A stretch of DNA of 46,916 nucleotides from an uncultured Clostridia bacterium (GTDB lineage Bacteria; Bacillota; Clostridia; Christensenellales; Borkfalkiaceae). Position 1 is the stretch's first letter; every line of letters begins with the position of its first letter. This document shows, piece after piece, positions 11,300 through 32,654 of this stretch. The stretch is from contig CANREQ010000003.1 in the NCBI GenBank assembly GCA_947629695.1, positions 1-46,916 of the forward strand. Reading direction: 5' to 3'. Position numbers and translations under genes: made by a program. Below the pieces are notes generated by a model that was not told the DNA's origin, made no database searches, and worked only from the letters and a program-made list of their open reading frames with translations.

Positions 11300-13189
11300 A
11301 TGGAAAGATCGCTTTATATCGAAAATTACAGAAATATAGGTATTGATTCAAGTAAGAAGTTGATACTTAACAGAACAGCCGAAAGCGACAAAATGGGTAA
11401 TCTTGTTATTTTGATAGGGGAAAACAATTCGGGCAAGTCAAATGTTTTGGATGCAATCGAGACATTCGGCACGCAAAAATTTCAGCAAAAAGACGAGACT
11501 ACTTTGGATTACTCCCCTGAAAAGAAAGTGCCCAAAATATCTTTGGTGTGCAAGGTCGGCGAAGAAGAGTTTTACAGCTTCGGGATAGATTCCGCCGGGA
11601 AGATTTATCCAAGACACACGCTTTCTGACGGGGTCGATGCCGAGGCGGATTTTATAGACAAACAAACGATATCGGAGTTTGTTCACGAGATTCAAAATAA
11701 AATCGGGCAATATAATCTTAAAGACGAGCAATTGCAATTTTATTTACTAAAACTTTCGGAAGCGCAAGAGCCTATCGATAACAAGTTTCTCGAGGAAATC
11801 ATAAAGGCAATCAGCGAAAGAGTCGATTATGTTTCAAGAAATAATTTATCGGGATTAAAACAGATATTCTATAATATTTGCAACAGTAATAAATTTATAA
11901 ATACCACTTTATCGAATTTTTATCTGAAACGCGAAAAAGATATAAAGGAAAAAGCCGCCCGCATAAAAGTGCTTTATAAAGAGAAATACGGGTATGAGCT
12001 GGTTCCCAAAGTGTACAGGTATACAAATTCTCAAATCAGAACTTCCGATTTGTCGAACAAGCAGGGCAATCAATTTATCTATAAAGTATTGCATGCTATC
12101 GGCATATCGCCGGAAGAGATTACCAATGTTTATGCGTCATTCAATAAAACGCAGAGCCGAGGTATTTTGAATACCGAAGAGGACAAACTGAATAAGCTTT
12201 TGGTTAAAGTTGCGGATGATTTCAATGCCGTTTATTTCCGCGGAATAAAGCAACCCGGCGAAGAATACCGCTTCAGGTTTAATCTTGAAAGCACCAATAT
12301 CTTTTTTTCCATATATCGTGGGAATAAGGACCTTAACCTCGATTATCAATCAACCGGTTTTGCCTGGTTCTTTAATCTGTATTTCAATTTATTATGTAAT
12401 AATTCATTGAAAACCGGCGACATAATAATTATGGACGAGCCCGCCACCAATTTACATATAGGCGGACAAATCGAATTGAGAAAATTTTTGAAAACTTTTG
12501 CCGTAAACAACGGTATTACTTTGGTGGTGGCAACGCATTCACCATTTCTTATCGATTTGGATTATCTGGATGAAATAAGGTTAATATCACGGCAAGGCGA
12601 AAATGCGGAAATTTACAATGATTTCAATGCTTTAACCGATGATGCACCGGATACATTATCCCCTATAAAACGCAGTTTAACCGTCAATAATCACGTTTTG
12701 CTTGATCCCGATGTTAAAGTAATTTTCGTGGAGGGCATAACAGATTATAACTATATGGTTACGTTCAAAAGGATTCTCGATAAAGGGGAACTTGTATTCT
12801 TACCCATAAACGGTTTGGGCAAAAACGATGATAATCTGAATAAACGTCATATCGAAATAGTAAAAGCTTTACAGCAGATAAAAAAGCACGGCCCCATTCT
12901 AATGGTGGACGGTGACGGTGCAGGCAAAGCGATCAAAGATTTTTGCGCCGACAAGAATACCGAGTTGAAAGTATTTGCTTTGAATGAAGCGGACCCGTCG
13001 TTTGTTACAATCGAAAGTCTGTTCAATGAAGCCGACAACGCGAAATTCGGGCTTAAAAATGCAGACGGCACACCTAATAAACATTCTTCGGTTTCATCCG
13101 TATTGAAAACTTTTGCCAAGAGCGACGATTTTTCAAAAACGACGGTAAATAATTTCAAAAAGCTGTTCTCATTCATCGATCAATTTTAA
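11300..13189 (+). CDS. OLD-family-like AAA/ABC ATPase with C-terminal TOPRIM nuclease domain
   Basis: A 629-residue protein with a split ABC-type ATPase in the first 440 residues: Walker A GENNSGKSN (about 40-48), Walker B IIIMDEPATNLH (about 373-384) and the switch motif THSPFLID (about 412). A TOPRIM domain follows, with the glutamate in FVEGITDYNYM (about 477) and the metal-binding acidic pair in MVDGDGAGKAI (about 536). This is the OLD (overcoming lysogenisation defect) arrangement, used by several anti-phage systems such as Gabija GajA and some retron effectors. No UvrD-like helicase or reverse transcriptase lies next to it, so it would be a stand-alone OLD-like system or a fused ATPase-TOPRIM relative of PARIS. 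It is AT-rich and cotranscribed with the HTH gene and probably the small downstream gene. Confidence 0.85.
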   Translation: MERSLYIENYRNIGIDSSKKLILNRTAESDKMGNLVILIGENNSGKSNVLDAIETFGTQKFQQKDETTLDYSPEKKVPKISLVCKVGEEEFYSFGIDSAGKIYPRHTLSDGVDAEADFIDKQTISEFVHEIQNKIGQYNLKDEQLQFYLLKLSEAQEPIDNKFLEEIIKAISERVDYVSRNNLSGLKQIFYNICNSNKFINTTLSNFYLKREKDIKEKAARIKVLYKEKYGYELVPKVYRYTNSQIRTSDLSNKQGNQFIYKVLHAIGISPEEITNVYASFNKTQSRGILNTEEDKLNKLLVKVADDFNAVYFRGIKQPGEEYRFRFNLESTNIFFSIYRGNKDLNLDYQSTGFAWFFNLYFNLLCNNSLKTGDIIIMDEPATNLHIGGQIELRKFLKTFAVNNGITLVVATHSPFLIDLDYLDEIRLISRQGENAEIYNDFNALTDDAPDTLSPIKRSLTVNNHVLLDPDVKVIFVEGITDYNYMVTFKRILDKGELVFLPINGLGKNDDNLNKRHIEIVKALQQIKKHGPILMVDGDGAGKAIKDFCADKNTELKVFALNEADPSFVTIESLFNEADNAKFGLKNADGTPNKHSSVSSVLKTFAKSDDFSKTTVNNFKKLFSFIDQF

Positions 13190-13220
13190 GTCAATATAAA
13201 AAATAAAAGGAGGTACAAAT

Positions 13221-13400
13221 ATGAGTAAAGGCGGCGTATCGGACAATACACACACGCAGAAACAGCGTGATGACTATTCAAACCAACACAACCCGAATAA
13301 TCATGCTTATCATGATAATTTGAATAATCATTCTAACCAATGCAATCCCAATCATGCCGAGTATCGGCACTCCGGGGACGAAAAAGACGACAAAAGATGA
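13221..13400 (+). CDS. Small Asn/His-rich protein of the defence-like cassette
   Basis: A 59-residue frame with a near-perfect ribosome site AAGGAGGT 6 bases before the ATG and a terminator 20 bases after the stop. The product is very polar, with no hydrophobic core: it repeats the pattern NQHNPNNHAYHDN and NQCNPNHAEYRH, so Asn-Pro-Asn plus His/Tyr occurs twice. It might bind metal or nucleic acid or act as a disordered partner of the ATPase, but there is no known motif I can assign. It is separated from the ATPase stop by 31 bases without a terminator and so probably belongs to that operon. Confidence 0.75.
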   Translation: MSKGGVSDNTHTQKQRDDYSNQHNPNNHAYHDNLNNHSNQCNPNHAEYRHSGDEKDDKR

Positions 13401-13640: not shown

Positions 13641-16600
13641 ATGGGAAAAACCAAGCGCGATGGCCAAGCCGTTACGGTTAGCGATGAGGTAAATACCGAA
13701 GAATTGCTCATAAGCGCGCAAAACTACATCAAAAACGGCAAATTCAAGCGCGCAAAAAAAATTTACAAAAGGATATTGAAGGCGGATCCCGAATGCGCCC
13801 ATGCGTATTGGGGGCTTTTGCACTGCAGATTTAAGGCGTTTGACGACTACGACCTCGTAAAGCGCGGAAAGAAATTAGACAAAACGAACGAGTATTACAA
13901 AGCGTGCAGCCTGGCGGAAGAGGGCGACGACTACAATCTTAAAAAGCAGATCCGCGACGTCAGGAGCGCGCATATCTCCAAAAATACGCGCAATTTCGAT
14001 AGAAGCAATTATAAGGAGTACAGGTATAACACCAAATGGAAAAGGACGGCCAAGCGCTCTTTTGCGGCGCTTTGCGTGATCGCCCTCGGTTTCGTCGGCC
14101 TTTACGGATATTGGGGATATAGCAACCAGCTGAGTTATACCGTGGAGGACAATCGGGCGACGCTGAGCGGTTCCAATTTATTCTTCCGCTATTTAGCGCC
14201 GGACGACATCGAAGTGGATGAGTACGATGATTATCCCATAGTTGCCATAGGCGACGGCGCGTTGCAAAACAGCAAGCTCAAAACCGTGGAATTAGCCCCT
14301 TCGGTAAATGAGATAGGGGTATGTGCCTTTGCCGGGAGCAAGAATCTGACGGAAGTAAAATTCCTCGGCTCCTCGGTTGCAATAGGCGAGAAGGCTTTTG
14401 CCGATTGCTCCTCTTTGACAAACGTCACTTTCTTCGGCGCGAACTGGGCTACGACTACCGCGACGGGCGGCTATTACAACTCTTACGGCTCCGTCAGCAT
14501 AGGCAAAGGGGCGTTTGAAAACTGCGTATCGCTCCAAAGCATAACGCTCAAAGGGCTTACGGAGTTGGGGGATAACGCATTCGACGGGTGCGCCAATCTC
14601 AAGGAAGTATACTTGGACGGCAAGGCGGATATTAAAATAGGCAAGGGCGTTTTCGATAACGTTTCGCCGGATATCGTCGTCCGCATACCCACAATAGAAG
14701 AAGATCTTTACGACTCTCTTATGGATGAATACGATGACCTCAAATTCGAAACGTATACGCGCAACCGCGTGGAAGAGGTAAGCTATTTTATAGATCAGAT
14801 AGGCGATATTACAATAACCAGCCTTATCGCGATAGAAAAGGCGGAAGAGCTTTACGGCAAACTTACTTCTTCGGAACGCGCGCAGGTAACAAATTACAGC
14901 GACTTGGTTGACGCGCGCGCGGTATATACCGCCGTGCTCGCCATCAACCGCATAGGCGAAGTCACCGTTTACAGCGAAACTCACATAAAAAAGGCAGAAG
15001 AAGCCTTCAATGCGTTGACGGACAGGCAAAAAGAAAAGGTTTGCAACCGCGGGGCATTGACGGACGCGGTGGCGGTTTTCAATGTAATGAAGCGCATTAA
15101 CGATATAGGGACAGTATCTGTGCAGAGCAAGAACGCGATAGATAACGCGTTCGCGGCATACGAAAAATTGACCGACGGCAAAAAGGAAATGGTGACCAAT
15201 TATTCGTCCTTGCTTGAAGCGCGCGACACATACAAAGTTTGCGTCGTAACGGATAGTATAGGCCGCATAGGAACGGTGACGGAAAACAGCGCGGCTTTGA
15301 TAGAGCAAGCGGAAAAGGCCTACAACGGGCTGGAAGAGGAATTGCGCCCCAAAGTGTCAAACTATAAAACCTTGCAGGACGCAAAATTGTTATACAACAC
15401 CGTGGTTGCCATTGCGAAGCTGAAAACAATTACCTACCAGAGTATGTCGCTGATAACTGCGGCCGAAAAACTGTATAATGCGCTCGCCGAAGATTTGAAG
15501 GGGAAGGTGTCCAATTATTCCCTGCTCGAAAGCGCGAGGGATATATTCGCCGTAGTCGATATGATAGCGGACCTCGGGACAATTACACTGCAAAGCGGGG
15601 CGGGCATATCGCAAGCCGAAAGCGCGTTTGGCGCATTGTCGGTTACCGACCAAAACCGCGTCGGCAACAGGAGCACGTTGAAGGACGCAAGGGCGATATA
15701 CGATGTTATGGCGATGATAGATTCGATAGGCGGTACGGCGGAAAACAACCGCCAAAAGGTGGAAGAAGCGAAAGACGCCTACGATTCCCTCACGCCCGCA
15801 CAACAGAATAAAGTAACCAATTACGGAACTTTGAAAACCGCGATCGGAGAATTGCAGATCTCGGACGCGGAAAAACTGATAGACGATATCGGGCAGGTAA
15901 CTTTGGAAAGCCGCGATAAAATCACAAAGGCGGAATCCGCATGCCGGGCGCTTGACTTCGAACTGCAGCAAAAAGTGGAAAACTATTCCGTTCTTCTCAC
16001 CGCGAGGAGCATTTACGACGCTTTGGTTGCGATCGGCGGTTTGGGCTCCGTTACGGTCGGCAAAGGAACGCAATATAACTACGACACACTGACTTCGGAA
16101 AGCGCGGACAAGCTCAATCAAAGCACATTCAGAAATTCCATAGACAGCCTCACATTCAGCGGCTATAAAGCTATCGGGCAATCTGTTTGGATGGCGGTTT
16201 TCCCCAAGCTCGATTATGTGCGCTATGATTTCACAGCCGCAACAGCCCCGTCGGAGTTCACCGTACCTGCGGGCAATTTGACATATGTATTGGTGGGTTC
16301 GGCCGTCAATAATTATACGATGAAGATAACCGCACAGAAGGGATCCGACGTCCATTTGGGATTTGAGAACTTTGCCCTGCAAAACGGCTCATTGCCCATA
16401 GATCTCACAAATGCAAGCTCGGCTTATATCTCATTCTCCGGCAATTGCAGTGTAACCGCGACCTCGGGCGGATACGGCGCAATAAAAGCCAATGATTGCA
16501 CCTTGACGCTTTCAAAAGCGACTGTTACGGTTAAGGCGGCGGACGGCGGTGCGGGAATTGCCGGCGGAAACGGTTTGGAAACAAAAGACCTGACGATAAA

Positions 16601-17393
16601 AGCGGATGCGGATTGCTCCTTATCCATAACCGGCGGAAACGGCGGCAACGGGGCCGATGGATTAAATGGAAGTAATGGAGATAATGGACCTACAAAAACT
16701 GGCGGTGATGCGGATCGCTCTGCTCGTGCAGGTAAACCTGGAAGAGACGGAACTGACGGTAAAAACGGGACAGATGGCGGCAATGCTGCAGTTGTGCAAA
16801 ATTTAATAATAAATTCTGGGATAATAAAATTTGTCGGTGGCAACGGTGGTAACGGTGGCCGCGGTGGTAATGGCGGTAACGGCGGAAACGGCGGCAACGG
16901 TGATAACTATATGGTTTTTAAATATCGTTGGGGAGGTTACGGCGGTGACGGCGGCAATGGTGGTAATGGCGGCAAAGCCGGTAAAGGCGGAAGTGCTATT
17001 GAATGTTCGATAATCGACATTACAGGCGGTAGTGTAACTTTTGAGGTGGGAAAATGTGGCAACGGCGGTAATGGTGGTAATGGAGGCAATGGAGGCAAAG
17101 GCGACGATGATAATTGGATTACCAACAACCCGGGTGCTGATGGCGGCAATGCTGGTAATGGTGGTAATGGAGGTTCATGCTATAGTGAGCAAACGCAAAG
17201 TAGTATAGAAAGTAAACTAACCAAATATGGGGGTATAGTTACATATATTATTTCAGGTAAATCGCCTTCCAAAGGTGCTGGCGGCTCAGCCGGCGAGGTA
17301 GGCAAAGCAGGTAAGAATGTTCAAGGCAATATCTATGGTAAAAATGGTGCTCTCGGATATCCCGGCAAGGACGGCAGTATACTTTCAAGATAA
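13641..17393 (+). CDS. Membrane-anchored mosaic protein: TPR-like N terminus, LRR-like domain, eight helical repeats, glycine-rich tail
   Basis: A 1250-residue protein. Residues 18-130 are cytoplasmic and TPR-like (AQNYIKNGKFKRAKKIYKRIL). One membrane segment (about 140-160, CVIALGFVGLYGYWGYS) makes it a type II membrane protein with no cleavable signal. Outside follow an LRR_5/BspA-like part (about 194-350, with IGEKAFADCSSLTNVTF), then eight tandem repeats of about 56 residues (about 375-805), each built as I..IG.(V/I)T..S...I..AE.AY..L....+..V.NY..L..A. Next comes a beta-rich region and a Gly/Asn-rich tail with many GGNGG units (about 998-1250). The repeats probably form a long helical stalk and the tail a polyglycine-II or collagen-like fibre. 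An extracellular adhesive or structural role is inferred. The ribosome site is AAGGAG, 10 bases upstream. Confidence 0.85.
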   Translation: MGKTKRDGQAVTVSDEVNTEELLISAQNYIKNGKFKRAKKIYKRILKADPECAHAYWGLLHCRFKAFDDYDLVKRGKKLDKTNEYYKACSLAEEGDDYNLKKQIRDVRSAHISKNTRNFDRSNYKEYRYNTKWKRTAKRSFAALCVIALGFVGLYGYWGYSNQLSYTVEDNRATLSGSNLFFRYLAPDDIEVDEYDDYPIVAIGDGALQNSKLKTVELAPSVNEIGVCAFAGSKNLTEVKFLGSSVAIGEKAFADCSSLTNVTFFGANWATTTATGGYYNSYGSVSIGKGAFENCVSLQSITLKGLTELGDNAFDGCANLKEVYLDGKADIKIGKGVFDNVSPDIVVRIPTIEEDLYDSLMDEYDDLKFETYTRNRVEEVSYFIDQIGDITITSLIAIEKAEELYGKLTSSERAQVTNYSDLVDARAVYTAVLAINRIGEVTVYSETHIKKAEEAFNALTDRQKEKVCNRGALTDAVAVFNVMKRINDIGTVSVQSKNAIDNAFAAYEKLTDGKKEMVTNYSSLLEARDTYKVCVVTDSIGRIGTVTENSAALIEQAEKAYNGLEEELRPKVSNYKTLQDAKLLYNTVVAIAKLKTITYQSMSLITAAEKLYNALAEDLKGKVSNYSLLESARDIFAVVDMIADLGTITLQSGAGISQAESAFGALSVTDQNRVGNRSTLKDARAIYDVMAMIDSIGGTAENNRQKVEEAKDAYDSLTPAQQNKVTNYGTLKTAIGELQISDAEKLIDDIGQVTLESRDKITKAESACRALDFELQQKVENYSVLLTARSIYDALVAIGGLGSVTVGKGTQYNYDTLTSESADKLNQSTFRNSIDSLTFSGYKAIGQSVWMAVFPKLDYVRYDFTAATAPSEFTVPAGNLTYVLVGSAVNNYTMKITAQKGSDVHLGFENFALQNGSLPIDLTNASSAYISFSGNCSVTATSGGYGAIKANDCTLTLSKATVTVKAADGGAGIAGGNGLETKDLTIKADADCSLSITGGNGGNGADGLNGSNGDNGPTKTGGDADRSARAGKPGRDGTDGKNGTDGGNAAVVQNLIINSGIIKFVGGNGGNGGRGGNGGNGGNGGNGDNYMVFKYRWGGYGGDGGNGGNGGKAGKGGSAIECSIIDITGGSVTFEVGKCGNGGNGGNGGNGGKGDDDNWITNNPGADGGNAGNGGNGGSCYSEQTQSSIESKLTKYGGIVTYIISGKSPSKGAGGSAGEVGKAGKNVQGNIYGKNGALGYPGKDGSILSR

Positions 17394-17950: not shown

Positions 17951-18247
17951 ATGGAAGAGAAATTACGCAAGACATTATTCGATGAAGAAAACAGGGACAA
18001 CCTCTTGCTGGATAACGGCAACGGGCTCGTGATGAGTTTCGGTCAGGTGTATGCGACCGAACGCGAGGACGGGATATATTGCATATTGCGTCCCCTCGAC
18101 AGCGTTGAGGGGTTATCTCCGCGCGCCGCGTTGGTATTTTCGGTGGACGACGACGGGGTGTTCCGCGCCGTAAAGGACAAGAAAATATCCGAAGGCGTAT
18201 TCAAGGAGTATTACAAGGCAGTGGAATTGGCGAACAGAGGTGAGTAA
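17951..18247 (+). CDS. DUF1292-like small protein at the head of the chimeric protease operon
   Basis: A 98-residue protein (MEEKLRKTLFDEENRDNLLL...) with a beta-rich core, LLLDNGNGLVMSFGQVYATEREDGIYCILRPLD, resembling the DUF1292/YrzB pattern also encoded at 32361 in this window. The start at 17951 has GGGAGGAAAAG 6 bases upstream; the frame is open further upstream but without a ribosome site. Its stop is 2 bases before the ATG of the chimeric ATPase gene, so the two are translationally coupled. A function as a small partner or substrate-presenting protein of the protease is possible but is inference. A TATAAT at 17900-17905 may be its -10 box, but no well-spaced -35 is present. Confidence 0.72.
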   Translation: MEEKLRKTLFDEENRDNLLLDNGNGLVMSFGQVYATEREDGIYCILRPLDSVEGLSPRAALVFSVDDDGVFRAVKDKKISEGVFKEYYKAVELANRGE

Positions 18248-18249
18248 AG

Positions 18250-21081
18250 ATGAAGGTTGTTAAAAGTCCGGATATATACGTAAACGTAAACGGAAAGACC
18301 CCCGAGTATACCCAAGCGAAATTCGGCGCGGACTATTCCGCCATCGAGGAGCTGGACAGGCGGCTTGCCGAAGTCGAGGGGCAATCCTATGCCGTACAGG
18401 CCTCGAAGGAATATCTCTTCGGCATAAACAACCGCGAAAATGCAAAGGGAGTGGGCGGGCTTTTGACCTTCATCGGGCCGCCCGCGTGCGGCAAGACGAT
18501 GGTGGGAGAAAAAATCGCCGAAGCGCTTCACCGCCCCTATCTGCGCCTCGACATGAGCGCTTTCAACGACCGTGAAATAGGTTTGTGTGAGTTGTTCGGG
18601 GTGCAACAGTCGTATAAATCCGCGTCGGAGGGTCTGCTCACGAGCTATGTGGAGGAGCACCCCCTTTGCGTCTTGCTTCTGGACGAGTTCGAAAAATCCC
18701 ATCCCAATGTGCAGAGCCGCTTTTTGTCCATATTCGACAGGGGCTCTACGCGGGATATGTACACGGAGCGCGACGTCTCCTTCCGCGACGTGATAGTAAT
18801 AGTTACGATGAACCTCGGCTCTGCCATATACAATAAATCTATCGCGGCCTACAATTTATCCGCCACGCCGCAAAAGACGATAGTGCAGGCGATGAAGACG
18901 GAGATAAATCCCCAGACGGGCGCGCCGTACATAACCGAGGCGTTGGTGTCGCGGCTCGCACAGGGCAGGATAATGCTTTTTAACAGGCTTCGCCCCGAAG
19001 TCATGTGCAAAATAGCCGTAAACGAGCTGAATTTGCAGGCGCAATACTACTTTGACAATTACGGCATAACGTTTAAGACGAGCGCGTGGAACCTCGCCGA
19101 GCTCGTGCTGTACAGCCTGGGGGAAAACGCGGACGTGCGCATGGTCAAAAACAGGATAAGGGAGTTTTTCGAGGTCAACATGGAGAGGCTTGTAAAGGCG
19201 AGCCTTTCGTCAGGGCGCGAAGCGTTCACCGAGGTGGAGATAGACATCGACCTCGACGGTCTGCCCGCCGACGTAGAAGAGCTGTTCTTCGGCAAGAACA
19301 ATCTCCGCGTGATAGTCTGCTGTAAGGACGGCGACAGGGAGAAATTCATAAGCGCGTTCGACGGCAAGGCGGAGATAGTGTTTGCGGACGGGAACTTGGC
19401 GGCGGCCGCCGCGGACGGCGATATATCGGCGGCGGTAATAGACGCGGACGTGGGCGACAAGCTGTTTTGGGAGATAACCGGGCGGGAGATCCCCGTATAC
19501 GTCTATGTGACGGACGACGACGGCGCGATGAAGTTGCAGCGCTTCTCGGATAAGGGCGCAACGGAGTGCCGCTCCGGCGCGGGCTTTGACGAGGAGTGGC
19601 TGAAAGATATTTTAAACGGCATGAATATTTCGGCTATAACGCAGACCATCTACCGCGCGAACAAGGTGGTGGCATTCGATACGCTCTATTCGTTTGGGGA
19701 GGGCCGCACCGCCGTCATCGACATAACCGGCATAAAGCTTGTGACCGCGAAGGACGCGGACGATTTGGACAGATTCGTATCCGCAAGGCAGACTCCCAAC
19801 GTGCGACTTGACGACGTGTACGGCGCGAAGGACGCGAAAAAGGAGATAAAAAGCGTAATAGAAGTCCTCAAAAACTTCAAAAAATACAGGCGGATAGGCA
19901 TGCGCCTGCCCCGCGGGGTGCTCCTCGGCGGCGCGCCGGGAACGGGCAAGACAATGCTCGCAAAGGCGATCGCCACCGAAGCGGACTTGCAATTTATTCA
20001 GTGCAACGCCTCGGAGTTTTCCCAAAAATACGTCGGCGAGGGTGCGCGGCTCATGCGCGAGACGTTTGCCACGGCGAGGAAGTATGCGCCCGCAATAGTC
20101 TTTATAGATGAGGTGGACAGCTTCGCAAAGGCGCGGCAGGGCTCCGACAGGGAGAGCAATGCCGAGGTTTTAAACGCGCTTTTATCCGAAATGGACGGCT
20201 TCGCGGACAATTCCCAAACGCCCGTGTTCGTCGTGGCGGCCACCAATTTCAACGTAAAAAAGGGGGAAACGCTTTTAGACCCCGCCTTTATCCGCCGCTT
20301 CGACAGGCAGATAGAGATCGACTTGCCCGATTTGGAAACGCGCAAGGCGTATCTCGCGGATAAGCTGAAATTGTATCGCTCCGAAGTGTCCGAGAGGGTG
20401 GCGGAAAACGTGGCCAAGCGCTCCATAGGCTGGTCGCTCGGAGAGGTTGACGTGGTCATTCAAAACGCGTTACGTGCGGCAATATGCGGCAACGAAGGGG
20501 GTTTTATAACCGACGAAACGCTCAACGAGGCGTTCGAGGAATACTCGAGCGGAGAGAGCAGGGAGCGCGACGAAAAGGCCCTGCGCGGCACGGCCTTCCA
20601 CGAGGCGGGTCATGCCGTGGTTGCGGCAATGCTCGGCATTATGCCCTCGTACGCCACGATAGTCGCGCGCGGGGACTATGGCGGCTATGTATACTACGGC
20701 GACGAAAAGGTGACAAAGCTTTCAAAGCAGGACAGCCTCAACAGGATATGTATAATGATGGCGGGCAGGGCCGCGGAAGAGGAGCAGTTCGGCGAAGAGG
20801 GGATAACCTCGGGCATAAGCGGCGATTTGAAGGCGGCGACCGAGCTCGCGACGAGCATGCTCTGCGACTACGCGATGGACGGTGAGTTCCCCATTTATGT
20901 GGAGCCCTCCAAGCGCGGCGAAACTTACGTGACCGAGCGCGTCGCAAAGATAATAAAGGAGCAATCGGAGCGCGCGGGCGGGATAATAAAGGCAAACGCG
21001 GACAAGGTGCGCGCCGTCGCCGAGGCGCTGTTGGATAAGGTCAGCCTCGACGAAGTCGATTTAAAGGAAGTTTTGAAGTAA
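18250..21081 (+). CDS. Chimeric AAA+ protease: ClpA/B-type ATPase domain + FtsH-type ATPase + M41 zinc peptidase
   Basis: A 943-residue fusion that matches no standard family length. Residues about 35-365 are a ClpA/ClpB second-ring-type ATPase: Walker A GPPACGKT (about 76), Walker B VLLLDEFEKSHPNVQ (about 140-150) and the sensor strand VIVIVTMNLGS. Residues about 366-530 are an alpha/beta linker with a faint receiver-like look. Residues about 520-780 are an FtsH-type ATPase: GGAPGTGKT (about 560), IVFIDEVDS (about 616) and DPAFIRRFDR (about 676). The peptidase has the zinc motif HEAGH (about 784) and the third ligand in SGISGDLKAATE (D about 859). FtsH's N-terminal membrane helices are absent, so this should be a soluble protease. 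Both ATP sites look intact. It would form a double-ring hexamer that unfolds and degrades proteins; substrates are unknown. Confidence 0.9.
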   Translation: MKVVKSPDIYVNVNGKTPEYTQAKFGADYSAIEELDRRLAEVEGQSYAVQASKEYLFGINNRENAKGVGGLLTFIGPPACGKTMVGEKIAEALHRPYLRLDMSAFNDREIGLCELFGVQQSYKSASEGLLTSYVEEHPLCVLLLDEFEKSHPNVQSRFLSIFDRGSTRDMYTERDVSFRDVIVIVTMNLGSAIYNKSIAAYNLSATPQKTIVQAMKTEINPQTGAPYITEALVSRLAQGRIMLFNRLRPEVMCKIAVNELNLQAQYYFDNYGITFKTSAWNLAELVLYSLGENADVRMVKNRIREFFEVNMERLVKASLSSGREAFTEVEIDIDLDGLPADVEELFFGKNNLRVIVCCKDGDREKFISAFDGKAEIVFADGNLAAAAADGDISAAVIDADVGDKLFWEITGREIPVYVYVTDDDGAMKLQRFSDKGATECRSGAGFDEEWLKDILNGMNISAITQTIYRANKVVAFDTLYSFGEGRTAVIDITGIKLVTAKDADDLDRFVSARQTPNVRLDDVYGAKDAKKEIKSVIEVLKNFKKYRRIGMRLPRGVLLGGAPGTGKTMLAKAIATEADLQFIQCNASEFSQKYVGEGARLMRETFATARKYAPAIVFIDEVDSFAKARQGSDRESNAEVLNALLSEMDGFADNSQTPVFVVAATNFNVKKGETLLDPAFIRRFDRQIEIDLPDLETRKAYLADKLKLYRSEVSERVAENVAKRSIGWSLGEVDVVIQNALRAAICGNEGGFITDETLNEAFEEYSSGESRERDEKALRGTAFHEAGHAVVAAMLGIMPSYATIVARGDYGGYVYYGDEKVTKLSKQDSLNRICIMMAGRAAEEEQFGEEGITSGISGDLKAATELATSMLCDYAMDGEFPIYVEPSKRGETYVTERVAKIIKEQSERAGGIIKANADKVRAVAEALLDKVSLDEVDLKEVLK

Positions 21082-21094
21082 GGGGGAGAAAGCC

Positions 21095-22228
21095 ATGTGC
21101 GAAAGATCGGACAACAATTTATACAGAATAGTGCTGACCTTCCTCAACGAGGGCAGGAAGACCTTCAATTTCGAAGAACTGAATAAACTTTCCAACGACG
21201 AAGTGAGCCCCATTGACCTCTACGACGCGCTTAACAGGCTGAGGGAAGATAAGATCCTCACCGTCACGGGCAAGGACCAATTCGGCATAAACGTCGATAT
21301 AAGCTCATTCAGAAGTTATGTCTTAAAGCGCACCGCGACGGACGAGGAAGGCGGGGAGAGCCGAAAAGTAAGCGTGGACGACATATTCGGCTCTTCCTGG
21401 ACGGCGATCTGCCCGGACGAGAGCCCCATCGAAGATTTCATAGAGAAGATGAAAAGGGAAAGGTCGGGGGAGAACGTGCTCTGGGGGGATAACTTTGACG
21501 ACGATGATGAGGACGAAGATGATGACGATAGCGACGATGACGAGGACGATGACGAGGACGATGACGACGGGGAAGAAAACGGCGGGGACGACGAGGACGA
21601 TGATTTCGGGCTGAAAATGAGGGTTCTGAAGTTTTGCATAAGGGAAAAAGCGGCTTCCGTCTCGCTGATACAGCGCCACTTCCCGATAGGATACCTGAAA
21701 TCCTGCAAAATGTTGGATTGGCTGGAGGAAAATCATTTTATCTCCTCTCAAGGCGGAATGAAGCCGCGAAAGGTGCTGATAAACAGGAAGGACTTCGAAA
21801 GGATTTTCTGCGTGCCATTTGACGAAGGGTGCGCGGGCAAAGAGGAGGAAAGAAGGTTTGACGGCAGGTGCCTTGTGAGCCGCGCCTCCGTCTTTGCAAA
21901 GAGGAAGGCCATGCAGGATTTGGTCAACGTTTTAAGCCTCGCCGCGCGGAAAAAGAGCGCGCCTATAACCGAAAAAGCCCAGCCCAACCGCTCGCTTTGG
22001 GAGGATAAGGAATTGGAGACGGCGGTTATGGACAGGGTGGAAAGATTGGTGAAATCGGATACCCGCATGGGCAGGCAGGGCGCGATAAAAAAGGCGGAGG
22101 CCTATCTCGAGGCCGTGCGCGACACTCACGACGCCAAAGCCGTGCAGTTGTACGAGCGCATCGTGTACGAGCTGAAGAGCGTATCCGATAATTTCTACCG
22201 CAAGCTTAAAAGGTACATTTGCGGTTAA
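21095..22228 (+). CDS. Acidic partner protein with FtsK-gamma-like winged helix
   Basis: A 377-residue protein 13 bases downstream of the chimeric protease. Residues 1-75 look like a winged helix (FNFEELNKLSNDEVSPIDLYDALNRLREDKIL). Residues about 135-171 are almost only Asp and Glu. Residues about 173-230 match the FtsK gamma domain: KAASVSLIQRHFPIGYLKS, then MLDWLEENHFISSQGG and KPRKVLI. In FtsK that domain reads KOPS DNA sequences and contacts XerD; no FtsK motor is present here. The C-terminal 140 residues are helical and basic. It may be a DNA-reading adaptor that delivers substrates to the protease, or a regulator of the operon. This role is inferred only from domain and neighbourhood. 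The ribosome site is GGGGGAG. Confidence 0.82.
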   Translation: MCERSDNNLYRIVLTFLNEGRKTFNFEELNKLSNDEVSPIDLYDALNRLREDKILTVTGKDQFGINVDISSFRSYVLKRTATDEEGGESRKVSVDDIFGSSWTAICPDESPIEDFIEKMKRERSGENVLWGDNFDDDDEDEDDDDSDDDEDDDEDDDDGEENGGDDEDDDFGLKMRVLKFCIREKAASVSLIQRHFPIGYLKSCKMLDWLEENHFISSQGGMKPRKVLINRKDFERIFCVPFDEGCAGKEEERRFDGRCLVSRASVFAKRKAMQDLVNVLSLAARKKSAPITEKAQPNRSLWEDKELETAVMDRVERLVKSDTRMGRQGAIKKAEAYLEAVRDTHDAKAVQLYERIVYELKSVSDNFYRKLKRYICG

Positions 22229-22313
22229 TTTAAAGGCGGAAGAATATGCCCGAGGCGGAAAGGCGTGTTAAAAGCCAAAAAAGCGCCTGCCAACCGGGCG
22301 CAGAGGTGAGAAA

Positions 22314-22640
22314 ATGGAGGAAGAGCGGGAGTTTATCTACATGACAATAGAAGTCGATACATACTCCAAGTGCATGCGGCTTTATTTGGATTACGACAAA
22401 AACCGCGCAGAATTGAACAATAAGCCCTTTAAAATGGACGCGCGCCGCTTTTATAACGACCTCGTGCCCATCATATCCCCGTGGCAATGCGACATGGGCG
22501 GGAGCAATACGCGCGACGGAATGGCGTATTATATAAAAATCGAAAAGGACGGGCGGGAGCGCGTCTACAGGGGCAGAAACAGTTTCCCGAAAAACTTCCG
22601 CCGCTTTTTGGGCCTCTTGGGCGAATACGGCCTGTGGTGA
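22314..22640 (+). CDS. Unknown protein, last gene of the chimeric protease operon
   Basis: A 108-residue protein with no family I recognise. It has a predicted beta-rich first half (EFIYMTIEVDTYSKCMRLYLDYD), a conserved-looking centre (LVPIISPWQCDMGG) and a basic C-terminal helix (RNSFPKNFRRFLGLLGEYG). No signal or membrane segment. The ribosome site AGAGGTGAG is 6 bases upstream. It lies 85 bases after the acidic partner gene with no terminator between, and a clear terminator follows at 22695, so it probably belongs to the same transcript. Confidence 0.65.
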   Translation: MEEEREFIYMTIEVDTYSKCMRLYLDYDKNRAELNNKPFKMDARRFYNDLVPIISPWQCDMGGSNTRDGMAYYIKIEKDGRERVYRGRNSFPKNFRRFLGLLGEYGLW

Positions 22641-22874: not shown

Positions 22875-23654
22875 ATGGATAAACGGTTAAAAGAATTATG
22901 GGAACGGGCGGTGAAGAGGAAGGCAAAAAATATAATGTTTCCGCAATTCACAAAGGAAGAAAAAATAAGGTTTAAGCGGGAAGCGGATATAATAGAGCAG
23001 ACGGGCACGACCGAGCAGATTTTATCTTTTATAGAACAAGCCGACGAGGCGCGCAAAAAGGGGAGGTTTTACGCCGAGGGCGAAGCGAATTGCAGTTTTT
23101 TATTGTACGCCGCCGGCGCGACGAAGGTAGACCCCATTTTTGTAAGGTCGCCGTTTGAACTTTTCATAAATCCGTTGACCGAAAATAAGCCCGCGTATAA
23201 TATAGTTTTTGCCGATAAGCCCGAATTTCCCCTTGAGGACGATGGAATGGATTATGACAAATTTATAATAAAGTGGGCGGTAAAGCACGGAATTATAAAA
23301 AAAGAGCAGTTAAAGACAAGCGACTTTTATCCGCCCGCGCAAAATTATCAGTTTGTCTGCGAGGTGCTCTCCGAATCCAACGGAAATATAGTCTGGTACG
23401 AACAGGCGATAGAGCTTTTATGCCGCATAGGCGGATTTACATATGCCGAAGCCGACCTCTTGCGGCGGGAAATAAAGGGTAACGAGTGCATGTTCCCGGA
23501 GCAGAGGAAAAGATTTTTAAATCATGCGGTGCAGACGGGATACAGATGGGCAGACGCGGACAGATATTTTCATTATATCTTCCAATCGCTTTTAAGCGGC
23601 AATTTAAAGCTGAAAGCCCACGCAGTCGCCACCGTGTTCGGGAGAAGAGTTTGA
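22875..23654 (+). CDS. Miniature, catalytically dead DnaE (DNA polymerase III alpha)-like protein
   Basis: A 259-residue protein that lines up in order with the palm and fingers of bacterial DnaE, with most of the palm deleted. RFKREADIIEQTG corresponds to the DnaE segment before the GRGS loop; EANCSFLLYAAGATKVDPI matches SAAGSLVAYALGITDLDPL; FELFINPLTENKPAYNIVF matches FERFLNPERVSMPDFDIDF; and YEQAIELLCRIGGFTYAEAD followed by LLRREI matches the fingers EQ...GY...AD.LRRA. The DxD metal site of the palm is replaced by NIV, and PHP, beta-binding and OB parts are absent, so it cannot polymerise. It may have become a nucleic-acid or nucleotide sensor. It starts a tight operon with kptA. Assignment is by eye but over several collinear blocks. 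Confidence 0.75.
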   Translation: MDKRLKELWERAVKRKAKNIMFPQFTKEEKIRFKREADIIEQTGTTEQILSFIEQADEARKKGRFYAEGEANCSFLLYAAGATKVDPIFVRSPFELFINPLTENKPAYNIVFADKPEFPLEDDGMDYDKFIIKWAVKHGIIKKEQLKTSDFYPPAQNYQFVCEVLSESNGNIVWYEQAIELLCRIGGFTYAEADLLRREIKGNECMFPEQRKRFLNHAVQTGYRWADADRYFHYIFQSLLSGNLKLKAHAVATVFGRRV

Positions 23655-23663
23655 TCGGACATT

Positions 23664-24197
23664 ATGACGGGTAAATTTCTCGCATATATTTTGAGGCACA
23701 ACCCCGCATTTTGCGGCGTAGAACTCGACAAAAGCGGCTGGGCAGACGTGGACGGGCTTTTGGCGGGCGCGCAAAAATCGGGTAAAGAGTTAAACGCGGA
23801 TATGCTTGAAAAAATCGTGCAGACCGACGGCAAAGGGCGGTTCGAGTTTAACTCCGACAGGAGCAAGATACGCGCGACTTACGGACATTCGTTGCCCGTT
23901 GATTTAGACTTGCAACCCGAAACCCCGCCCGATATTTTATATCACGGCACAGCCGAAAAGTTTTCGGATAGCATTAGGCGATACAGGCTGATAAAAAAGA
24001 GCCGCAACTTCGTCCATTTATCGCCCGAAAAATATATGGCCGAAAGGGTCGGTGCAAGGCACGGCAGAGCCGTTATTTTGGGCATATATGCGGGGCAAAT
24101 GGCAAAAGACGGCTATAAATTTTATCGATCCGCAGGCGGCGTTTGGCTGACTGAAGAAGTCCATGCCGAATACATTGATTTTAATGTCAAACCGTGA
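23664..24197 (+). CDS. kptA: RNA 2'-phosphotransferase (KptA/Tpt1 family)
   Basis: NAD+-dependent enzyme that moves a 2'-phosphate from an RNA splice or repair junction to NAD+, giving ADP-ribose 1'',2''-cyclic phosphate. The 177-residue length is typical. All family blocks are present: LAYILRHNP near the N terminus, IRATYGHS (about 70), ILYHGTAEKF (about 91), FVHLSPEKY (about 113) and YRSAGGVWLTEEV near the end, which include the RNA-binding Arg/His and catalytic Arg. Bacteria have no tRNA introns needing this enzyme, so a role in RNA repair or in modifying other 2'-phosphate or ADP-ribose acceptors is likely. It lies 9 bases after the DnaE-like gene and in one operon with an RNA-repair-type HAD protein. 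Confidence 0.9.
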   Translation: MTGKFLAYILRHNPAFCGVELDKSGWADVDGLLAGAQKSGKELNADMLEKIVQTDGKGRFEFNSDRSKIRATYGHSLPVDLDLQPETPPDILYHGTAEKFSDSIRRYRLIKKSRNFVHLSPEKYMAERVGARHGRAVILGIYAGQMAKDGYKFYRSAGGVWLTEEVHAEYIDFNVKP

Positions 24198-32360: not shown

Positions 32361-32654
32361 ATGGCAGAGCAAGACAAGCAGGAGCCCACCGCGGAGGAAG
32401 AGGAGGAGCTCATAGAGCTTATCGACGACGACGGAAATATAATCAAATTCAGACTTTTGGACGTGACGGAGTACAAGGGCGAAAAATACGCGCTCTTGCT
32501 CGCGGCCGAGCCCAACGACGAGGTCGCCGACGACGAGGTCGCCATTTTCCGCTACAAGGAAAAGGAGCAAATGCTGGAACCCATCGAGGACGACGCGCTT
32601 CTTGAAGAGGTGTTCGAGTTTTACAAAAACGAGGACTTGGGCGACGAAGATTGA
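32361..32654 (+). CDS. DUF1292 (YrzB-like) protein
   Basis: A 97-residue acidic protein with the DUF1292 pattern: LIELIDDDGNIIKFRLLDVT, then EYKGEKYALLLAAEP and VAIFRYKEK. The N and C termini are mostly Glu and Asp. In Bacillota this gene usually lies next to yqgF/ruvX, as here. The biochemical role is unknown. A paralogue-like protein heads the chimeric protease operon at 17951, which is why the similarity is worth noting. The ribosome site AAAAGGAG is about 10 bases before the ATG. Confidence 0.9.
   Translation: MAEQDKQEPTAEEEEELIELIDDDGNIIKFRLLDVTEYKGEKYALLLAAEPNDEVADDEVAIFRYKEKEQMLEPIEDDALLEEVFEFYKNEDLGDED

Follow-up and report, generated by a model that had tools for sequence, protein, structure and literature searches.

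The known architectures of bacterial ATP-dependent proteases are Lon, FtsH, ClpXP, ClpAP, ClpCP, HslUV and the proteasome. Stress-tolerance islands (tLST) encode FtsH together with a Clp-type motor, the clpK/clpG product, which is a full Hsp100 protein. The FtsH of these islands is described as inner-membrane associated (PMC10850787), and FtsH ternary proteins, according to Kaur et al. 2020 (PMC7159879), contain two FtsH-type AAA+ domains, the N-terminal one being dead. We analysed a 46,916-nucleotide stretch of DNA from an uncultured Clostridia bacterium (the window, which is contig C3 of a 1.41-Mb genome in 116 contigs). It encodes a 943-residue fusion protein in which an AAA+ module resembling the second AAA+ domain of ClpA/ClpB is followed, after a spacer, by an FtsH-type AAA+ module and then an M41 peptidase on a single chain. 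Such Clp-FtsH fusions appear to be a genuine family of regulated proteases that has not been described before. We consider it likely that the protein is a soluble two-ring ATP-dependent zinc protease, probably hexameric, with dedicated accessory proteins.

The domain content and order of the fusion were read directly from one open reading frame (ORF; Table 1). Pfam matched AAA_2 (residues 73–219), AAA (557–691) and Peptidase_M41 (774–941), all above the cut-offs, in agreement with the first-pass annotation of this DNA, which had read a ClpA/B-type AAA+ domain, a linker, an FtsH-type AAA+ domain and an M41 peptidase from the letters. The N-terminal module has Walker A at residues 76–83, Walker B D145 and E146, pore tyrosine Y122, Arg finger R235 and sensor-2 R297. 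The FtsH-type module has Walker A at residues 561–568, a YVG pore motif (Y594–G596), Walker B D620 and E621, and R682 and R683. By alignment, Walker A and B, the sensor-1 Asn and the Arg fingers are present in both modules of the window protein, and the earlier reading that both ATP sites are intact thus stood, as did that of the HEAGH motif with a third Asp ligand in the peptidase.

The fusion is predicted to be soluble and to have no membrane helix. In Kyte-Doolittle profiles, no 19-residue segment of the window protein exceeded 1.6 (maximum 1.59, within M41), versus 16 segments above 1.6 and a maximum of 2.32 in the E. coli FtsH control, which fits the claimed absence of membrane helices. 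Among 33 proteins scanned, including that of L217, three (L243, L221 and L224) had 1–3 segments just above 1.6 (maximum 1.73).

Profile comparisons identified which motors were combined. The profile of the N-terminal module scored 153.5 bits against ClpA residues 448–719 and 140.7 bits against ClpB residues 557–827, both second AAA+ domains, and the best domains elsewhere scored 47.6 (Lon), 34.7 (ClpX) and 26.1 bits (FtsH). The profile of the FtsH-type AAA+ and M41 half scored 344.5 bits against E. coli FtsH residues 146–593. In the alignment, the GYVG pore motif of ClpB falls on an S-Y-K motif of the fusion family (Y122 in the window). By these profiles, the resemblance of the N-terminal module is to the second AAA+ domain of ClpA and ClpB, not to ClpB as a whole. 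The first-pass label of a ClpB-FtsH chimera was therefore kept as to the Clp-type module and dropped as to the whole ClpB, and "ClpA/ClpB D2-type module plus FtsH" describes the protein better. An IGL/IGF-type ClpP-docking tripeptide was found in 0/34 family members in the aligned ClpP-loop region (L244 covers part of it); ClpB also lacks it there, and ClpA has IGL in the same region.

No curated family with this exact architecture was found. Fifty-five NCBIfam families matched the window protein, and whole-protein scores of all 25 listed were below their own cut-offs, the best being FtsH_fam (303.1 versus 600 bits), with ClpA at 106.8 (cut-off 993.15) and ClpB at 71.5 bits (cut-off 1232.1). 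None of the curated families found describes the fusion, and literature searches, which covered titles and abstract openings of open-access papers, brought up no description of a ClpA/B-type module fused to FtsH-M41.

A survey of genomes yielded 34 distinct fusions including that of the window (33 loci minus L217, the sequence of which equals that of L026, plus L250 and L251; the G400 copy, which is split over two contigs, is not counted). The relatives come from other genomes, are 30–72% identical to the window fusion and have no in-frame stop. Since in-frame fusions recur at this range of identity, a chance or assembly join is ruled out as the source of the window fusion. An assembly chimera or frameshift could be invoked because the window comes from a fragmented 116-contig assembly, but it is barely credible against 34 distinct members in a single clade, including fusions in other assemblies that are 67–72% identical and carry the same flanking genes.

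The tree of the FtsH-type AAA+ and M41 half was built with FastTree from 33 fusions (L242, whose end is missing, was left out) and 90 FtsH-type sequences, 89 of them distinct. A mixed alignment was set aside, because viral Clp-like fragments in it seemed to fall on the wrong ring. All 33 fusions formed a single clade (support 1.0, stem 0.89), which stayed intact after four more FtsH-like sequences were added. In this second tree the nearest branches were L093, L256, L257 and a phage FtsH, all long, with supports of 0.88–0.91. L256 (G031:C88, 439 residues) and L257 (G038:C3, 429 residues) are FtsH-like AAA-M41 proteins without N-terminal membrane helices by hydropathy, and possibly represent soluble single-ring M41 proteases.

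Within the fusion clade, eight short forms of about 950 residues grouped with a support of 0.989 (the predicted start of L026 gives 1034 residues), and the remaining 25 grouped at only 0.666. The long forms have 175–368 residues ahead of the position of W70 (truncated L244 excluded), and inspection by eye suggests two or more kinds of sequence among them. Some of these N-termini read like a Clp N-domain; no Clp N-domain was among the Pfam families listed for two long forms.

The catalytic residues are conserved throughout the family. In the N-terminal module, the Walker K, T, D and E and the sensor Asn are kept in 33/33 members covering them and the Arg finger in 33/34 (lost in L238); in the FtsH-type module, the Walker K, T, D and E, the sensor Asn and both Arg are kept in 34/34; and both His, the Glu and the third Asp of M41 are kept in 33/33 members covering them. 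The pore residues vary more, which counts against the two-ring reading. The aromatic of the N-terminal pore is gapped in L234–L237, L239 and L240 (7/34 counting L244, which is merely truncated) and replaced in L238, the member that also lost the Arg finger; the pore loop of the FtsH-type module is gapped in L224 and L241, and its aromatic is replaced in L223 and L227. These gaps and the L238 replacement in the N-terminal pore would suit a ring used for assembly or gating only, which would bind ATP and take over from the membrane helices in keeping the hexamer assembled, all unfolding being left to the FtsH ring. We regard this as unlikely, given that the Walker B Glu and the Arg finger of this module are so widely kept and that its pore aromatic is retained in 26/27 members aligning there; together these suggest hydrolysis and threading by the N-terminal ring in most members.

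The spacer between the two modules had been described as an alpha/beta linker. A spacer is indeed present, and profile evidence corrects its label to receiver-like. A profile of 30 homologues (stretch aligned to residues 316–505) matched 30 Protein Data Bank (PDB) sequences at E up to 10. Response regulators or receiver proteins account for 26 of these, some of them presumably so from their names. The best match was YycF (E 2.8e-5), and two of the three matches at E <1e-3 were YycF. Pfam Response_reg was detected in the spacers of 4/30 members (best E 3e-4). An Asp occupies the aligned phospho-acceptor position in 31/34 members (D398 in the window). The Thr that follows strand four of YycF is found at its position in only two of 34 (L218 and L224), and an active-site Lys of receivers was not apparent on reading the sequences, for which no aligned count was made. 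The spacer is thus probably a degenerate, receiver-like domain.

The distribution of the fusion is patchy and mostly within one order, with counts that are lower bounds (2–4 candidates scored per genome). At least 28/396 genomes of the order carry it, in 17/142 genera, and 5/37 genomes of the window's genus do. Broader draws gave at least 3/391 genomes at the level of the class (one outside the order), at least 2/299 at the level of the phylum (one being the window's own genome), at least 1/195 in the phylum of an Erysipelotrichaceae locus, and 0/200 in the phylum of a Cysteiniphilum locus, the last an empty answer with no positive control. L250, from a genome of the phylum of the Erysipelotrichaceae locus, is 52% identical to the window fusion, and G1097 contains one short and one long form. 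Four close relatives are on uncultured Clostridia contigs from "Lapin" samples. The carrier of the fusion looks like a gut-type bacterium. No plasmid or phage record covered 80% of the fusion query, and the best plasmid two-piece matches were separate clpK and ftsH genes.

These two-piece matches, with clpK and ftsH side by side on plasmids of Klebsiella and others, raise the possibility that the fusion is a general heat-shock or quality-control protease, a single-chain version of a Clp-type disaggregase plus FtsH with no specific partners, and the core motors are of that kind. We judge it distinctly unlikely, however, in view of the patchy presence of the fusion, the receiver-like domain between the modules and the Pfam-named flanking genes, which are not chaperones. 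A separate FtsH-type gene also exists in the same genome: contigs C99 and C88 each have an M41 match of their own, and the frame on C99 aligns with the FtsH half of the fusion, so the fusion is no replacement for FtsH.

The short forms share an operon. This sub-clade comprises eight loci (the window, L215, L216, L218, L220, L250, L025 and L026), in which neighbours were located by hidden Markov models (HMMs) on six-frame ORFs. In all eight, a homologue of the window's small upstream gene lies directly upstream of the fusion gene (spacing from overlap to 204 nucleotides) and a homologue of the 377-residue partner directly downstream (from overlap to 26 nucleotides), both on the same strand and found by their own HMMs. 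In the window, the upstream ORF (ATG at 17951) ends at 18247, 2 nucleotides before the fusion gene, and the partner gene begins 13 nucleotides past the fusion stop. Nine neighbour HMMs gave no match at 76 control FtsH loci (1.14 Mb, mostly other taxa). The first-pass proposal of an operon with small coupled genes held for the upstream gene and the partner; a fourth gene, at 22314–22640, fell outside the conserved core, having a single homologue among the clustered loci (in L215) and no Pfam match.

The upstream protein was assigned to a divergent DUF1292-like type, and the FtsK_gamma domain of the partner passed the Pfam cut-off in 5/8 partners (window, L215, L216, L025 and L026). Several observations weaken the case for dedicated accessory proteins. 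Cluster members served to build the neighbour HMMs, making the E-values circular for those members; L026 and L250 (small gene) and L218, L220 and L250 (partner) were added by HMM only. DUF1292 (PF06949, gathering cut-off 24 bits) was passed in only two of the eight operon loci, L218 (28.5 bits) and L220 (28.2 bits), and there in second copies; it stayed below the cut-off in L216 (15.4), L250 (19.9) and the fusion-adjacent copies of L218 and L220, and in the window, L215, L025 and L026 none was reported close to the fusion at E up to 0.1. Pfam matched nothing in the 98-residue upstream protein of the window, even with E values up to 1 allowed. FtsK_gamma was below the cut-off in L250 and was not reported by Pfam in the L218 and L220 partners. 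Genes of both kinds also occur, in small numbers, elsewhere in these eight genomes, with 1–4 DUF1292 and 1–6 FtsK_gamma matches per genome at E up to 0.1.

Table 1 Features of the fusion locus in the window.
Feature	Positions	Strand	Evidence
Small upstream gene, 98 aa, divergent DUF1292-like	17951..18247	+	BLAST cluster with L218 and L220 proteins, which pass Pfam DUF1292; own HMM
Fusion protease, 943 aa	18250..21081	+	ATG start; ORF list, Pfam, homologues, tree
N-terminal AAA+ module, resembling ClpA/ClpB D2 type, aa 28–330	18331..19239	+	Pfam, ClpA/ClpB profile comparison, alignment
Receiver-like spacer (probable), aa 345–480	19282..19689	+	PDB profile matches; D398 at phospho-acceptor position
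FtsH-type AAA+ module, aa 512–772	19783..20565	+	Pfam, NCBIfam, profile, alignment
Peptidase M41, aa 774–941	20569..21072	+	Pfam; HEAGH aa 784–788, third ligand D859
Downstream partner, 377 aa	21095..22228	+	Looks winged-helix-like at the N-terminus by eye; also a long acidic run, FtsK_gamma and a C-terminal part common to several relatives
FtsK_gamma domain of partner, aa 176–229	21620..21781	+	Pfam E 2.7e-15
Gene of 108 aa, no family assigned, outside conserved core	22314..22640	+	BLAST clustering, Pfam
aa, amino acids; coordinates are positions in the window.

The partner is likely of FtsK origin. The partner of L026 is a whole FtsK, with motor (107.7 bits) and gamma domain, and that of the window has the gamma domain only, an acidic run standing in the place of the absent motor. 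This origin hints at DNA-bound substrates. A more elaborate version, based on the survival of the DNA-reading gamma domain in most partner copies, is a DNA-guided, switchable protease in which the FtsK-derived partner would bring the two rings to DNA-bound proteins and the spacer would act as an on/off coupling switch; we hold this to be distinctly improbable. If it were true, the result would be a class of AAA+ proteases whose two rings have a regulatory domain between them.

Related genes were also seen apart from the fusions. The window has a clear DUF1292 match at 32427–32627 (52.6 bits), the only one of its genome at E up to 0.1, which is not beside the fusion. At L260:2-2487, an FtsK gene (alpha, motor and gamma) is followed by a DUF1292-like gene at the contig start with no fusion in view; a fusion gene may have been cut off upstream. 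At L262:3537-4480, a DUF1292-like gene (19.1 bits, below the cut-off) runs into a ClpP-family gene, stop and start overlapping, and the pair adjoins a type IV secretion system (T4SS; conjugation) coupling protein and a large leucine-rich repeat (LRR) protein. This arrangement lends weak support to the idea that DUF1292-like proteins assist proteolysis as accessory factors. The fusion of L225 also has a similar ClpP-family gene nearby (12663-13232). A paper on Listeria (PMC8528326) was considered as a possible bridge from DUF1292 to ClpCP and set aside, the term DUF1292 being absent from the main text searched. A 414-residue frame of G014:C26 (L261:3991-5232), apart from the fusion operon, has two FtsK_gamma domains and LRR-like matches.

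The 26 members outside the sub-clade, including L251, were scored for other neighbours. YbjN-like genes accompany 9/26 (seven within 100 nucleotides, same strand), and 9/26 also have a gene for a membrane protein whose C-terminus is RyR-like (eight within 220 nucleotides, same strand). Over all 34 members, same-strand kinase, PP2C-like and vWA genes occur with six, four and three members, respectively. The YbjN, kinase and vWA labels pass Pfam cut-offs in the examples scanned; the RyR label is a motif reading (Pfam E 0.006 in one case, below the cut-off), and the PP2C label is weak (in L237, 15.9 bits against a cut-off of 24; the L028/L216 copy is not matched by Pfam). No recognised neighbour was found in L221, L222, L224, L239, L240, L242, L244 or L251, some of which are at contig ends. 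At L219:6408-7727, a weak Card1-like endonuclease match (below the cut-off) directly follows two YbjN-like genes upstream of a long-form fusion. Upstream of the operon of L216/L028, on the same strand, are TIR-LRR, PP2C-like (weak label) and protein-kinase-like genes.

Such neighbours could indicate that the fusion belongs to a signalling system for conflict or phage defence, as its effector or regulator. Kinase and vWA genes above Pfam cut-offs, the TIR-LRR gene and the weakly labelled PP2C-like and RyR-like genes near several members, the weak Card1-like match and the patchy spread are in its favour, and published conflict systems include FtsH-type AAA proteins (PMC7159879). We nevertheless find this explanation somewhat unlikely. 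PADLOC returned only generic AAA+ families for two fusions scanned, including the window protein, and nothing for four neighbour proteins; phage records lacked the fusion at 80% coverage; no full fusion was among 80 viral loci listed from viral contigs with generic patterns, a weak absence; and the window's own neighbours show no clear effector.

Further genes of the window include, at 13641–17393 just upstream of the operon, that of a 1250-residue protein that begins with weak tetratricopeptide repeat (TPR) matches, ends in a long tail rich in glycine and also has LRR_5 and helical repeats. A 259-residue ORF at 22875–23654 matches DNA polymerase III alpha in two places that are not contiguous, the NTPase and the finger domain, and looks like a cut-down fragment or small relative of it; a bacterial RNA 2'-phosphotransferase (Tpt1/KptA) follows at 23664–24197. 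Rfam and tRNA scans across the window gave no match.

For the soluble two-ring protease that we favour, we infer a hexamer working in a three-protein complex. The ClpA/ClpB-D2-type N-terminal ring would stand in for the FtsH membrane anchor as assembly platform and entry motor. This ring, or the partner proteins, would engage a substrate, and the ring would begin unfolding; the chain would then pass the receiver-like spacer to the FtsH ring and be cut in the M41 zinc chamber. ClpP would not be needed, and its docking tripeptide is absent. In the sub-clade, substrates would be chosen or delivered by the DUF1292-like protein and the winged-helix partner, acting as dedicated adaptors or regulators; the long forms would rely for this on their varied N-terminal domains and on other neighbours.

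If this is true, a soluble, single-chain, two-ring zinc protease with a ClpA/B-type module before FtsH would be added to the bacterial ATP-dependent protease architectures. The family would be a natural test of the purpose of the FtsH membrane anchor, of cooperation between rings from two AAA+ clades and of the ability of an inter-ring domain to gate threading. It would also tie DUF1292-like, YbjN-like and FtsK-gamma proteins to AAA+ proteolysis.

Compared with known systems, the fusion shares with FtsH (TIGR01241, MEROPS M41) the AAA+ and M41 domains, HExGH and the third Asp ligand, and E. coli FtsH 146–593 aligns over its whole C-terminal half. It differs from FtsH, which has N-terminal helices and a single ATPase domain, in having no membrane helices by hydropathy and a second intact AAA+ module with a receiver-like spacer in front, and does not reach the cut-off of the FtsH equivalog TIGR01241. 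With ClpA/ClpB it shares the type of the second AAA+ domain, the Walker, sensor and finger residues being kept; unlike them, it has this type only, on the N-terminal side, with the M41 peptidase on the same chain, and unlike ClpA it lacks the ClpP tripeptide. L256/L257 also combine AAA with M41 and lack N-terminal membrane helices by hydropathy, but have a single AAA+ module, are 30% identical and fall outside the fusion clade. With the FtsH ternary systems, whose partner genes are MoxR and vWA, it shares two AAA+ domains per protein, one of FtsH type, and vWA genes are near 3/34 fusions; in contrast, it has an intact N-terminal AAA+ module of the ClpA/B type as well as an M41 peptidase. Identity with a known ternary protein was accordingly rejected, since that has two FtsH-type domains, the first dead (PMC7159879). 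In the tLST islands, as in the fusion, a Clp-type motor and FtsH are encoded together, but clpK/clpG and ftsH are separate genes there, whereas the fusion joins both in a single chain.

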